Shown one piece after another: positions 23,558 to 28,241 of a DNA stretch of 64,000 nucleotides. The first letter of the stretch is position 1. The number at the start of each line of letters is the position of its first letter. The DNA comes from Spirochaetota bacterium. Its GTDB lineage: Bacteria > Spirochaetota > Spirochaetia > Treponematales > UBA12059. Under the pieces are notes generated by a model that searched no databases, had not been told where the DNA came from, and worked only from the letters and a program-made list of their open reading frames with translations. A program made the translations under genes and the position numbers. The stretch covers positions 62,001 through 126,000 of the forward strand of contig JAKLDN010000002.1 of assembly GCA_022703505.1 (NCBI GenBank). Reading direction: 5' to 3'.

Positions 23558-24702
23558 AGATCCTCCACGCCTCGGACCTCCACCTGGGCAAGACCCTCCA
23601 CGAGCGGGACCTCGTCCCGGACCAGGCGGCCATGCTGGACCAGCTCCTGGCCGCGGCCGTGGAGCACGATCCGGCGGCCCTGGTGATCGCCGGGGACGTG
23701 TACGACAAGGCCGTCCCGCCGCCCGAGGCGGTGAGCCTCCTCGGGAACTTCCTGGGCCGGGTCAAGGAGGCCCGGCCGGACCTGGGCGTCCTCGTCATAC
23801 CTGGGAACCACGATTCCCCGGCCCGCCTGGGCTTCGGGGACAGCCTCTTCCGCCGGGCGGGGGTCCACGTCCGGACCCGGCCGGAGGACGCCGCGGAACC
23901 GGTGGTCCTGGAACGGGACGGGGAACGCCTGTATCTCTGGGCCCTGCCCTTCCTGGGGGCCGGAGCCTTTCCGGACGCGCCGAGATCCCAGTCCGGGCGC
24001 TTCCGGGCCGCCCTGGACCTCATCGTCCCGCGCCTTGCCGGGGACGGGGCCAACGTCCTGGTCTGCCACGCCTTCGCGGCGGGGGGGCTGGCCAGCGAAT
24101 CCGAGCGGGTCTTCCTGGGCTCCGCGGAACTGGTGGACGCCGACGCCTTCGAGCCCTTCGACTACGTCGCCCTGGGCCACCTGCACCGTCCCCAGAAGGC
24201 GGGCCCCAAGGGCCGCTATCCGGGTTCCCCCCTGGGCTACTCCTTTTCCGAGGCGGGGCAGGAGAAGGGCTTCCTCCTGGTCGAGGTCCGGCGGGGAGGG
24301 TTCGAGGCGGTCCCCGTGCCCGTGAAGCCCCTCCGCCCCCTGTCGCGGCTGGAGGGGAGCTACGCGGACCTCCTGGAATCCGGGGCGGGTCGGGCCGAGA
24401 AGGACCATTACCTGGAAATCCTCCTCACGGATCCCGAACCCGTCGTCTCCCCCGTGGAATCCCTCCGCCGGGTCTTCCCGAACCTCCTGTCCCTGCGCCA
24501 GGCGGCCTTCGAGAATCCCTCCTTAGGAGAGGCCGAGGCCGCCGAGGCCCCCGCGAGGGCGTCCGCCTCCCGGGACGGAGCCGGGGCGGCCCTGGAGGAC
24601 TTCCTCGCCTTCCATCGGGCGGTGCGGGGGGCGGACCCGGAGCCCCCGGTCCTGGAGCTCTTCCGGGAGCTCCTTTCGGAGGCGGCCGATGCGGCCCCGT
24701 AG
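23554..24702 (+). CDS. sbcD: exonuclease subunit SbcD (Mre11-type)
   Basis: Metallophosphoesterase nuclease subunit of the SbcCD complex that cuts DNA hairpins and protein-blocked ends. Motifs: HASDLHLGK, IAGDVYDKA, IPGNHDSPAR, CHAFAAGG and LGHLHRPQ (residues 5 to about 210), all metal ligands intact. The C-terminal 120 residues form the cap and SbcC-binding part, 382 residues in all. It overlaps the preceding gene by ATGA and sbcC by 14 bases. Hairpin cleavage is of interest in a region so rich in palindromes. Confidence 0.96.
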   Translation: MKILHASDLHLGKTLHERDLVPDQAAMLDQLLAAAVEHDPAALVIAGDVYDKAVPPPEAVSLLGNFLGRVKEARPDLGVLVIPGNHDSPARLGFGDSLFRRAGVHVRTRPEDAAEPVVLERDGERLYLWALPFLGAGAFPDAPRSQSGRFRAALDLIVPRLAGDGANVLVCHAFAAGGLASESERVFLGSAELVDADAFEPFDYVALGHLHRPQKAGPKGRYPGSPLGYSFSEAGQEKGFLLVEVRRGGFEAVPVPVKPLRPLSRLEGSYADLLESGAGRAEKDHYLEILLTDPEPVVSPVESLRRVFPNLLSLRQAAFENPSLGEAEAAEAPARASASRDGAGAALEDFLAFHRAVRGADPEPPVLELFRELLSEAADAAP

Positions 24703-27700
24703 GCTGGTCCTGGCCAACTTCGGCCCCTACCGGGGGACCGCGGAGGTGGACTTCGACCGCCTGGGGGACGTCTTCCTGGTCTGCGGGAAGACCGGCTCCG
24801 GCAAGTCCAGCATCTTCGACGCCCTGACCTACGCCCTCTACGGCCGGGCCCCGGAGTCCCGGGGGAGCCTGGAGCGGGAGCTCCGATCCCACCTGGCCCT
24901 GCCGGAGGAGGAGACCCGGGTGGAGCTGGAGTTCTGGCTCGGGCTGGACGCCTTCCGGGTGGTCCGTACCCCTCCCTTCCGCAGGCCCCCCAAGAAGGCG
25001 ACCAAGGCCGGTTCCGCCGTGGAGGAGCCCGCCGCGGCCGCCCTGTATGAGGGCCACGGGGAGGGGGCCCGCCTGGTCTCGGACCGGATCTCCGAGGTGG
25101 ACGAGATCCTCCGGCGCCGCATCGGCTTGACCCAGGAGGAGTTCACCAAGATCGTCCTCCTGCCCCAGGGGGCCTTCCAACGCTTCCTGGAGATGAACTC
25201 CACGGACCGCACCTCGGTCCTCCAGAAGCTCTTTCCCGTGGATCTCCACGACCGGACAGCCGCCCTGGCCAAGGACCGGGCCGCGGATGTCCGGAGGCGC
25301 CTGGAATACCTGGACGGAGAACTGGCCCGACTGGACGCCGAGCTGGGCGGTCCCGGGGAGGGAGGGAGCGCCGGAGCCCTCCTTTCGGACCTGGAGAAGG
25401 CCCTGGCGGACGCCCGGGACCGGGAGCGCGCCGCGCAGGCGGAGCTGGAGACCCGGAAGGCCGCGTTCCGGGAAGCCCGGGAGACGGAGGCCCTGCTCGA
25501 GCGGAGGGACCGGGAGGCCCGGGCCCTGGCCGCCCGGGAGGCGGGCCGGCCCGCCCGGGAGGCTTGGGGGAGGGACCTGGACCGGGACTCCGCGGCGCGC
25601 TCCGCGGCCCCCCGGGTGGACGCCCGGGAGAAGGCGGAGGCGGACCTCGAGACCGCACGGGAGGAGCTCCGGAAGACCCGGGCGGAGGTGGAGGCCCTGG
25701 AGGCCCGGGAGGGCGAGGCGGCGGAATCGGCCCGCAAGGCGGAGGACCTGGCCGCCCGGGCGGCCGCCCTGGACGCCGAGGCGGGAGCCCTGGCCGCGGC
25801 CCGGGCGGCCTGGGAACGGGCCCGGGCCGCGGCTGCCGCCGGGGAAGCGGCGAGGGCCGCGGAGGAATCCGCCCGGGCCGAGGCGGAGGACCGGGCCCGG
25901 GAGCTGGACGAGGCCGAGCGGGGGTACCGCGGCCTGGCCCTCTCCCCGGAGGAGGAGGAAGGGGCACGGGAACGCAGGGAAACCGCCCGGACGGCCCGGG
26001 AGGAGGCGCGCAAGCTCCGGGACCGGGCTTCCCGGGGGGCCGAGCTGGCCCGGAAGCGGGACGCCGCCCGGGAGGAGGCGGCCCGGAAGGACCGGGAGGC
26101 CGAGGAGGCCGTCCGGGACGCCGAGGTGGCGGAGGCCCGGCTCTCGGACCTCGCCCGGGAGAGGGATCTCTCCGCGGCCGGCGTACTCGCGGCGGGACTG
26201 GAACCCGGCGAGCCCTGCCCGGTCTGCGGGTCCCGGGACCATCCCGCGCCGGCCGCGCCGCGCCCCGAGGCCTTCGGCCTGGAGGACCGGCTCCGGGAGG
26301 CGGGAAGCTCCCGGGACGCGGCCCGGGCCCGGGAGGCCCTGGCCCGGGGCCGGGCCCGGGATCGTAGCCGGGAGGCGGAGGAGGCGGAGGCGGAGCTGGC
26401 CGCCCTGGGAAATGTCCCGGAGGAGGAGGCCGCGCGGGAGCTCCTGGCCGCGGCGGAGGCGGAGGAATCCGCGGCCGTGGAGGCTCTGCGCGCCCTGGCG
26501 GAGCGGGCCCGTGCGGCCGCGGCCGCCCGGTCGGTCGCGGAAGCCTTGGCCGAGGGCCTCCGATCCGCGCGGGAGCGGCTTTCCGCGGCGTCCCGGTCGG
26601 CTGCCGCGGCGGGGGCGGCGGAATCCGAAGCCCGGGCGTCCGCCGGGGACGAGGACCCTACGGAGCGCCTCGAGCTCGTCCGGAGGGAACGGGCCGAGGC
26701 GGACCGGGCCCGGAAGGCCGCGGAGGAGGAGGTCCGGAACCACCGGGACGGTCTCTCATCCGCCCGGGCCCGCCGGGCGGTGGCGGAGGAACGGATCCCC
26801 GCCCTGGAGGCCGCCCTGGAAACGGCCCGGGAGGCGGAGGGATCCGCCCTGGCCGCCGCGGGATTCCGGGACGGGGCGGAGTGCCGGACGGCCCTCCTTT
26901 CCGGGCCGGACCGCGCCCGCCTCGCCTCCGAGGCGGAGCGCTACGACCGCGAGCTGTCGGAGGCCCGGGCCCGGGCCCGGGCTGCCGGGGAGGCCGCGGA
27001 GGGCCGGGAGCCGGGGGATCCGGAGGCCCTGGCCCGGGAGGCGGAGGCCGCGGAGGCCCGCCTCGAGGAGGCCCGGGCCGAGGTCCTGGCCTCCTCGGGG
27101 AGGGCGGAGGCCGCCCGGCGGGGCGAGTCCCGGCGGCGGGTACTCTCCGAGGAGCGGAGGACCCTGGAGGAGCGCGGCCGGACCCTGGACGGGCTTTCCA
27201 GGCTGCTCAACGGAGAGCTGTCCGGCTCCCGTCTGCCCTTCAAGAACTACGCCCTGTCCCTGTACCTGCGCCAGGTGGCCCGGGCGGCCTCCCGGCGCCT
27301 CCTGGACATGTCGGACCGGCGCTATTCCCTGTCCGTGGACGAGGGACCCGCCCGGGGCACCGCCAAGGCGGGTCTGGACCTCTCGGTCCACGATTCCTTC
27401 ACCGGACGGTCCCGGCCCGCGGGCACCCTATCGGGGGGGGAGAAATTCCTGGCCTCCATCGCCCTGGCCCTGGGGCTGGCGGACGTGATCACCCGGCGGG
27501 CGGGGGGCATCGTCCTGGACGCGGTCTTCATCGACGAGGGCTTCGGATCCCTGGATGACGAGGCCCTGGACCGGGCGATCGAGGTCCTGGACCGCGTGCG
27601 GGAGGGGCGGATGGTGGGGCTTATCTCCCATGTCCCCGAACTCCGGGACCGGATCCCGGCCCGCATCGAGGTGGCCAAGGGCCGGGGAGGATCCCGGATC

Positions 27701-27721
27701 CGGATCGAGGCCGTGGATTGA
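24689..27721 (+). CDS. sbcC: exonuclease subunit SbcC (Rad50-type ATPase)
   Basis: SMC-like ATPase of 1010 residues. Walker A is GKTGSGKSS (33-41); two long Arg/Glu/Ala-rich coiled coils surround the zinc hook CPVCG (about residue 510); the signature LSGGEKF and Walker B VLDAVFIDEGFGSLD are near the C-terminus. Partner of SbcD directly upstream (14-base overlap). The coiled-coil codons are extremely GC-rich. The gene ends about 30 bases before the nested palindrome that separates it from trpR. Confidence 0.97.
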   Translation: MRPRRLVLANFGPYRGTAEVDFDRLGDVFLVCGKTGSGKSSIFDALTYALYGRAPESRGSLERELRSHLALPEEETRVELEFWLGLDAFRVVRTPPFRRPPKKATKAGSAVEEPAAAALYEGHGEGARLVSDRISEVDEILRRRIGLTQEEFTKIVLLPQGAFQRFLEMNSTDRTSVLQKLFPVDLHDRTAALAKDRAADVRRRLEYLDGELARLDAELGGPGEGGSAGALLSDLEKALADARDRERAAQAELETRKAAFREARETEALLERRDREARALAAREAGRPAREAWGRDLDRDSAARSAAPRVDAREKAEADLETAREELRKTRAEVEALEAREGEAAESARKAEDLAARAAALDAEAGALAAARAAWERARAAAAAGEAARAAEESARAEAEDRARELDEAERGYRGLALSPEEEEGARERRETARTAREEARKLRDRASRGAELARKRDAAREEAARKDREAEEAVRDAEVAEARLSDLARERDLSAAGVLAAGLEPGEPCPVCGSRDHPAPAAPRPEAFGLEDRLREAGSSRDAARAREALARGRARDRSREAEEAEAELAALGNVPEEEAARELLAAAEAEESAAVEALRALAERARAAAAARSVAEALAEGLRSARERLSAASRSAAAAGAAESEARASAGDEDPTERLELVRRERAEADRARKAAEEEVRNHRDGLSSARARRAVAEERIPALEAALETAREAEGSALAAAGFRDGAECRTALLSGPDRARLASEAERYDRELSEARARARAAGEAAEGREPGDPEALAREAEAAEARLEEARAEVLASSGRAEAARRGESRRRVLSEERRTLEERGRTLDGLSRLLNGELSGSRLPFKNYALSLYLRQVARAASRRLLDMSDRRYSLSVDEGPARGTAKAGLDLSVHDSFTGRSRPAGTLSGGEKFLASIALALGLADVITRRAGGIVLDAVFIDEGFGSLDDEALDRAIEVLDRVREGRMVGLISHVPELRDRIPARIEVAKGRGGSRIRIEAVD

Positions 27722-27753: not shown

Positions 27754-27900
27754 CTAGGAGTTTGTCGGGCTTGCCCACCTAAACAATAGAAAAATCGCAT
27801 ATACGCGATTTTTCTACCTTGCAAACTCCAAAGGAGCCGGATAATCGGGAGTTTTAGCGCCGATCGGCGCTAAAACTCCACATGTCCGACAGGCTCCTAG
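27754..27900. other. nested, cloverleaf-like palindromic element between sbcC and trpR
   Basis: An outer stem pairs CTAGGAG...GTCGG (27754-27768) with CCGAC...CTCCTAG (27886-27900); in RNA the bases between pair through G-U. Inside are a 12-bp hairpin (TAGAAAAATCGC, 27787-27816) and a perfect 32-bp palindrome without loop (27848-27879, arms GGAGTTTTAGCGCCGA). AAACTCC (27823-27829) and GGAGCC (27833-27838) can pair alternatively with the outer-stem strands, giving two exclusive folds. The last bases include the trpR stop codon. Possible two-way terminator or repeat element. Confidence 0.75.
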
Positions 27901-28241
27901 CCCGCCTTCGCGGTTCCCCGGGTCTTTTTACGGTCTTCGATCCGGATGCCCGCGATCTGGAGCATCCGCCGGAAGGCGGATTCGGGTTTCTTCAGCTCCC
28001 GGCTGCCCCGGGTGATCTTGCACAAGGAAAGCCCCAGGTTCTGGGCGATCTGCCGCTGAGGGATGCCCGAAGCCAGGTCCTTCACCAGGGCCCAGCGCTT
28101 GGCGATCTCGTCGGCCTCGGATTTCGTGAACAGGCTGTACAGGAATTCCTCGATCAACCGGGGATCGTGGGCGGCCGCGAGGGTCACGGACATTTCCTTG
28201 AGGTTCCGGGCGATCAGGTCTATGTCTTCGGCACGTTTCAT
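27897..28241 (-). CDS. trpR: Trp repressor TrpR
   Basis: Protein of 114 residues aligning along its length with TrpR: LFTKSEADEIAKRWALVKDL corresponds to the dimer core with the conserved Trp-binding Arg, and the helix-turn-helix IPQRQIAQNLGLSLCKITRG ends in ITRGSRELK, which keeps the Arg-Gly and Ser of the corepressor pocket. It has a basic C-terminal tail. No trp biosynthesis genes are nearby; instead a TrpXYZ-type importer is divergent, making it the likely target. A weak AAGGTG lies far from ATG 28241. Confidence 0.88.
   Translation of the reverse strand: MKRAEDIDLIARNLKEMSVTLAAAHDPRLIEEFLYSLFTKSEADEIAKRWALVKDLASGIPQRQIAQNLGLSLCKITRGSRELKKPESAFRRMLQIAGIRIEDRKKTRGTAKAG

Follow-up and report, generated by a model that had tools for sequence, protein, structure and literature searches.

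A nested palindrome of 147 bp lies at positions 27754-27900 of the window, the 64,000-nucleotide stretch of Spirochaetota DNA that was analysed. It is flanked by two convergent genes, sbcC on the + strand (24689-27721; Pfam PF13476 and PF13558) and a Trp-repressor-family gene, trpR, on the - strand (27897-28241; Pfam PF01371). What is the biological nature of this palindrome? The sequence-only reading regarded its switchable pairing as typical of a regulatory RNA or of a mobile single-stranded DNA element. We propose, with a probability of about 0.93, that the palindrome is a MITE of the IS1182 type, that is, a non-autonomous DNA transposon that duplicates a CTAG target. Mobility was thus rightly suspected, and the kind of element appears to be a different one, namely a MITE with the ends of DDE-type IS1182 elements and not an HUH element.

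The MITE, oriented on the + strand, begins and ends with a CTAG target-site copy (27754-27757 and 27897-27900). The left terminal inverted repeat, GAGTTTGTCGGGCTTG (27758-27773, + strand), closely resembles the ends of IS1182-type elements, and the right terminal inverted repeat (27881-27896, - strand), which reads GAGCCTGTCGGACATG inward, is defined by pairing at the locus and by the alignment of copies. All of the structural pieces named beforehand are present at their positions. The outer stem, described as 15 bp with two G-U pairs, exists and is larger: positions 27754-27770 pair with 27884-27900 through 17 pairs, three of which are G.T/U (27761.27893, 27762.27892 and 27769.27885). In the 12-bp hairpin 1 (27787-27816, + strand), 27787-27798 pairs with 27805-27816 around a 6-nt loop. 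Hairpin 2 is a perfect 32-bp palindrome (27848-27879), which is loop-less in the window copy; the family consensus has an imperfect centre. Two inner segments on the + strand can pair alternatively with the strands of the outer stem, as had been recognized. CAAACTCC (27822-27829) repeats the left end in inverted orientation; by pairing with GGAGTTTG at 27757-27764, it closes a left side-by-side domain. GGAGCC (27833-27838) closes a right one by pairing with the right-end GGCTCC (27892-27897), and its GGAG directly repeats the GGAG at the left terminus. No ORF within the 147-bp element reaches 60 aa.

A genome-wide search, which the sequence-only reading had recommended, used 171 bases of the window locus as the query and identified, besides the window copy, ~20 full-length relatives and several partial ones. 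In all, the own genome holds ~34 copies, consisting of 22 full-length copies (the window copy included) and ~12 shortened derivatives. They are spread over many contigs in both orientations, and nearly all are bounded by CTAG. When the copies are aligned with 45-base flanks, similarity begins and ends abruptly at CTAGGAG...CTCCTAG, and these sharp ends are common to 21 aligned full-length copies. The end motif is found at 56 sites of the own genome (up to two mismatches) versus one site for a reversed control pattern. The family is therefore short, transposase-less, multi-copy and dispersed, with terminal inverted repeats at fixed borders, as is a MITE. The proximity to sbcCD, which had been considered meaningful, looks incidental, given that other copies stand beside many different genes. 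An immobile bidirectional terminator or a chance palindrome between convergent genes would suit the convergent context of the window and of 12 of 21 copies. However, the dispersed copies that share sequence and borders, together with the empty sites and the IS partner described below, argue against such a structure, and a terminator scan found nothing in the element, leaving this explanation with a negligible probability.

The shortened derivatives comprise right-half-only copies of 69-72 bp and 23-bp relics, which also carry CTAG at their borders. A GGAG-to-GGAG deletion reproduces the right-only form exactly, and a GGCT-to-GGCT deletion reproduces the 23-bp form exactly. From this exact junction match, we infer that the short direct repeats at the hairpin feet (GGAG and GGCT) would allow slipped-strand deletion to generate both forms. 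The right-only copies do not group clearly by themselves, as would be expected if such deletions occurred repeatedly and independently. Several copies have more complex structures. Right-half copies at L035 (~1001-1091) and L030 (~600-690) abut an inverted left-end remnant and share the CTAG between them. At L028 (601-761) and L029 (1001-1250), a hairpin is replaced or invaded by another palindrome, whose stem is GGGGTGTCCAAT...ATTGGACACCCC and which may be a mobile repeat in its own right, and a copy in G002 (L059, ~1040-1140) has a further palindrome inserted in hairpin 1 (CATTTTCAAAACTC...GAGTTTTGAAAATG). Similar hairpin repeats are arrayed beside an end motif at L042 (~960-1250; G000:C9 near 19116; GGCGCCGAAGCC...GGCTTCGGCGA and GCTTTCGCGCCCCTTGCC), and the ACAACCGTGTCCCCATCTGGTTGCCCGACTC motif is repeated in several near copies in the right flank of L017 (G000:C7 ~516340-516640).

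Does the element occupy a site that once existed without it? The comparison of the sbcC-trpR interval in relatives, also recommended beforehand, provides an answer at the locus itself: in the sister genome G001, the interval is devoid of the element and the trpR stop codon lies in a single CTAG. Orthologous sites of three other copies are likewise empty and have a single CTAG. In G001, this CTAG coincides with a stop codon at the sites of L023, where the gene is thioredoxin-like, and of L012, where the two flanks match stretches of that sister genome sharing 6 bases; for L027, the empty site is in G002. At a further locus, L032, both sister genomes hold a ~20-bp relic of the element. Because the intergenic flanks have diverged between the sister species, the empty sites can be aligned with confidence mainly on one flank. 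In these aligned sequences, CTAG borders the element at each end and is single at the empty site, as expected from a target-site duplication, which within an obligatory CTAG is indistinguishable from duplication of TA. The palindromic target appears to be CTAG alone; an extended palindromic target was rejected, as flank complementarity beyond CTAG is near expectation. Taken together, the copies, sharp ends and single-CTAG empty sites show, at the level of sequence, an element that has inserted into CTAG.

The IS1182 assignment derives from larger elements that share these ends. When 84,980 species genomes were scanned for the end motif, at least 119 stretches were identified in many phyla, mainly ~165-bp MITE-like palindromes in proteobacteria. 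Among the matches listed, three (L133, L123 and L129) have 1.5-1.6 kb between the ends, and such elements were found in Methylotetracoccus, Endozoicomonas and Verrucomicrobiia (MAGs or genomes). The protein between the matching ends of L133 is an IS1182-family transposase (NF033551, 291 bits versus a cut-off of 270). The L123 protein is a shorter relative that scores 236 bits, under the same cut-off, and the masked L129 has a readable start that is related. A fourth autonomous relative, a decayed 1457-bp IS1182-like element, is located in a genome of the same order (G033; L219, 740-2196) and has the ends CTAG-CAGTTTGTCGGACTT...AAGTCCGATAGGCTG-CTAG, which show the left/right asymmetry of the MITE. 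We infer from these IS elements that the mobilising enzyme is an IS1182-type transposase, which would bind the terminal repeats (GGAGYYTGTCGGRCTT) and move the 147-bp element into a CTAG target, duplicating CTAG on each side. None of the autonomous relatives resides in the own genome, and no IS1182 transposase was detected there or in G001 and G002; therefore, the own-genome copies are probably stranded now. Other candidate parents were rejected. The sole IS1182 transposase above the cut-off among the relatives searched (L217) lacks these ends, and for an IS630/Tc1 parent (TA in CTAG), the own genome contains no DDE_3 protein and the relatives gave only two short hits. G031 contains 24 IS1182-like copies, and the one locus sampled (L227) does not have these ends.

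The same ends also enclose other short elements. A second MITE type of ~210-240 bp with CTAGGAG...CTCCTAG ends and an unrelated interior occurs in several genera of the order (L067-L071 in G004, L065, L066, L248 and L250), and G004 contains 28 exact end sites. The ~165-bp foldback elements of beta-, gamma- and deltaproteobacteria (L086, L102, L124, L126, L127, L140, L148, L152, L154 and L157) apparently constitute a widespread MITE group of which we found no description. In viral contigs, the exact end motif occurs four times only (L074-L077), close to contig ends, and in L074 an IS1182-like transposase fragment adjoins it. Phage records gave no match to the element, and the one annotated plasmid record has no annotated CDS ending at the match.

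A different route of mobility would be that of a REP/BIME-type or IS200/IS605-type element that a Y1 (RAYT/TnpA) transposase moves in single-stranded form. In its favour are the hairpins with their GGAG heads, the side-by-side domains preferred as single-stranded DNA and five Y1_Tnp genes in the own genome. However, G002, G004 and G031 carry the ends and have no Y1_Tnp, and at L051, the one RAYT locus of the own genome that was examined, nothing matches the ends well. Furthermore, an element with terminal inverted repeats and a CTAG at either end is unlike IS200/IS605, and the same ends border a DDE transposase. Y1 mobilization is thus very improbable, and the five own-genome Y1/RAYT-type genes are apparently unrelated to the MITE.

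How can a DNA transposon display such elaborate pairing? The + strand folds as RNA at -75.4 kcal/mol versus -33.4 for shuffles (z = -11.7), and the single-stranded DNA fold has a z of -9.7. RNA parameters favour the long outer stem, whereas DNA parameters favour the two side-by-side domains. We aligned 32 two-domain copies from the own genome, from its genus, from other genera of the order and from a Treponema MAG (L138), whose sharing of the two-domain interior points to a spirochaete as the host. Pairing is kept despite sequence change in both hairpins, with double changes in 7 of 12 pairs of hairpin 1 and in 10 of 11 pairs of hairpin 2. No double change was found in the outer stem across the 32 copies. 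The left alternative helix contains one double change, from G-C to C-G, in both G031 copies, where the outer pair is broken or gapped; this change is probably a single event and speaks for the left domain of the side-by-side fold. Two foldback modules describe the element best: the left module closes with its own end repeated in inverted orientation, and the right module closes with a segment that can pair with the right end. The two mutually exclusive folds exist because this double-foldback build contains repeated end sequences.

These same properties are what a regulatory or 3'-end RNA would exhibit, in which sbcC or trpR transcripts run into the element and the two folds serve as a switch, a terminator or an mRNA stabiliser. 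The RNA fold is strong, both hairpins covary, both alternative helices are 98% paired across the 32 copies, and most copies follow a stop codon, many of them between convergent genes. However, correction at the DNA level can likewise produce covariation in a palindrome, and the symmetric compensatory changes in hairpin 2, present in the window copy too, are what such correction would be expected to leave. The conserved G-U positions are not an argument for RNA because the G-U pairs of the MITE correspond to the difference between the left and right IS ends, and they look like a legacy of those unequal ends. In addition, Rfam yielded no match, with chance-level hits only and outside the element, and no intrinsic-terminator-like site was found within it. 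Copies occur in both orientations relative to neighbour genes, and orthologous genes in the sister genomes do without the element. We therefore consider a primary RNA function unlikely, and the MITE may have a secondary role as a 3'-UTR hairpin.

The MITE is unusually concentrated at stop codons. The flanking CTAG is the TAG stop codon of a neighbour gene in 29 of 34 copies, on both sides in 6 of them, and in the window the TAG at 27897-27899 on the - strand is the trpR stop codon, into which the element was inserted. Among the other CTAG sites, outside elements, 40 of 150 (27%) are stop codons, 51 are coding and 59 are intergenic, and the excess at the copies is significant against all other CTAG sites (Fisher, 3e-10) and against non-coding CTAG sites only (7e-6). 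This background was taken from 452 kb of the own genome with genes predicted by a simple codon-usage caller trained on that 452 kb, in which CTAG is depleted (201 observed versus 475 expected from trinucleotides). In other phyla, among the matches listed, 41 of 138 element ends fall where an open frame of 100 codons or more ends, versus 77 of 738 background CTAG strands (3e-8). The stop codon predates the insertion, given that an in-frame TAG is impossible inside a gene, and the empty sites confirm this order at three loci. CTAG is a palindrome that contains TAG on both strands, and insertion at a CTAG stop would thus return a stop codon to each side. The neighbour gene is usually unharmed because the CTAG inserted into is its stop codon. 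The simplest reading of the stop-codon excess is accordingly tolerance of a palindromic target that restores the stop to both sides, and the excess over intergenic CTAG may reflect either selection alone or an enzyme preference for stop-codon sites. As a bolder and rather doubtful extension, the MITEs and their IS1182 parents might form a stop-codon-directed transposon group in which one insertion spares the stops of both converging genes and the element is then kept by selection, beyond mere tolerance, as a novel structured 3' end that can adopt either of two folds.

Intergenic MITEs with foldback structure that derive from IS elements include the Neisseria Correia elements and pneumococcal RUP, which belong to other IS families and have TA targets, unlike the window MITE. 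REP/BIME sequences with RAYT are also short, palindromic, dispersed and located at gene ends, but are Y1-mobilised and lack the combination of terminal repeats and target duplication; the Y1 association sought for the MITE was not found. The IS1182 family (NCBIfam NF033551, including IS1272) has transposases flanked by the same terminal repeats as the MITE, which differs in having no internal transposase. Some members of this family are reported to target palindromic sequences (PMC5678879, citing Siguier et al.), and the CTAG target of the MITE is palindromic. Insertion of IS1272 replaces a stem-loop and does not duplicate the target (PMC5678879), whereas the MITE has CTAG on both sides and a single CTAG at empty sites; therefore, members of the IS1182 family differ in mechanism. 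MITEPsy1 of Pseudomonas syringae, as described in passages of PMC3189936, is a 100-nt MITE that resembles the window element in its terminal repeats and in duplicating CTAG (or YTAA) and has another terminal repeat sequence; those passages do not mention a stop-codon association. In a search that left most subscription journals and ISfinder outside, no description of the element family, its end sequence or a CTAG-stop-codon insertion bias was found. The palindrome is accordingly a well-supported MITE of the IS1182 type, and its family is unusually concentrated at stop codons.

These observations suggest that a mobile element may spread nearly cost-free in a gene-dense genome by using a rare palindrome that is a stop codon on both strands. 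The copies, relics and empty sites also constitute a ready set for the study of palindrome decay. If selection is what retains the stop-codon copies, the family would be a source of new gene 3' ends across several phyla.
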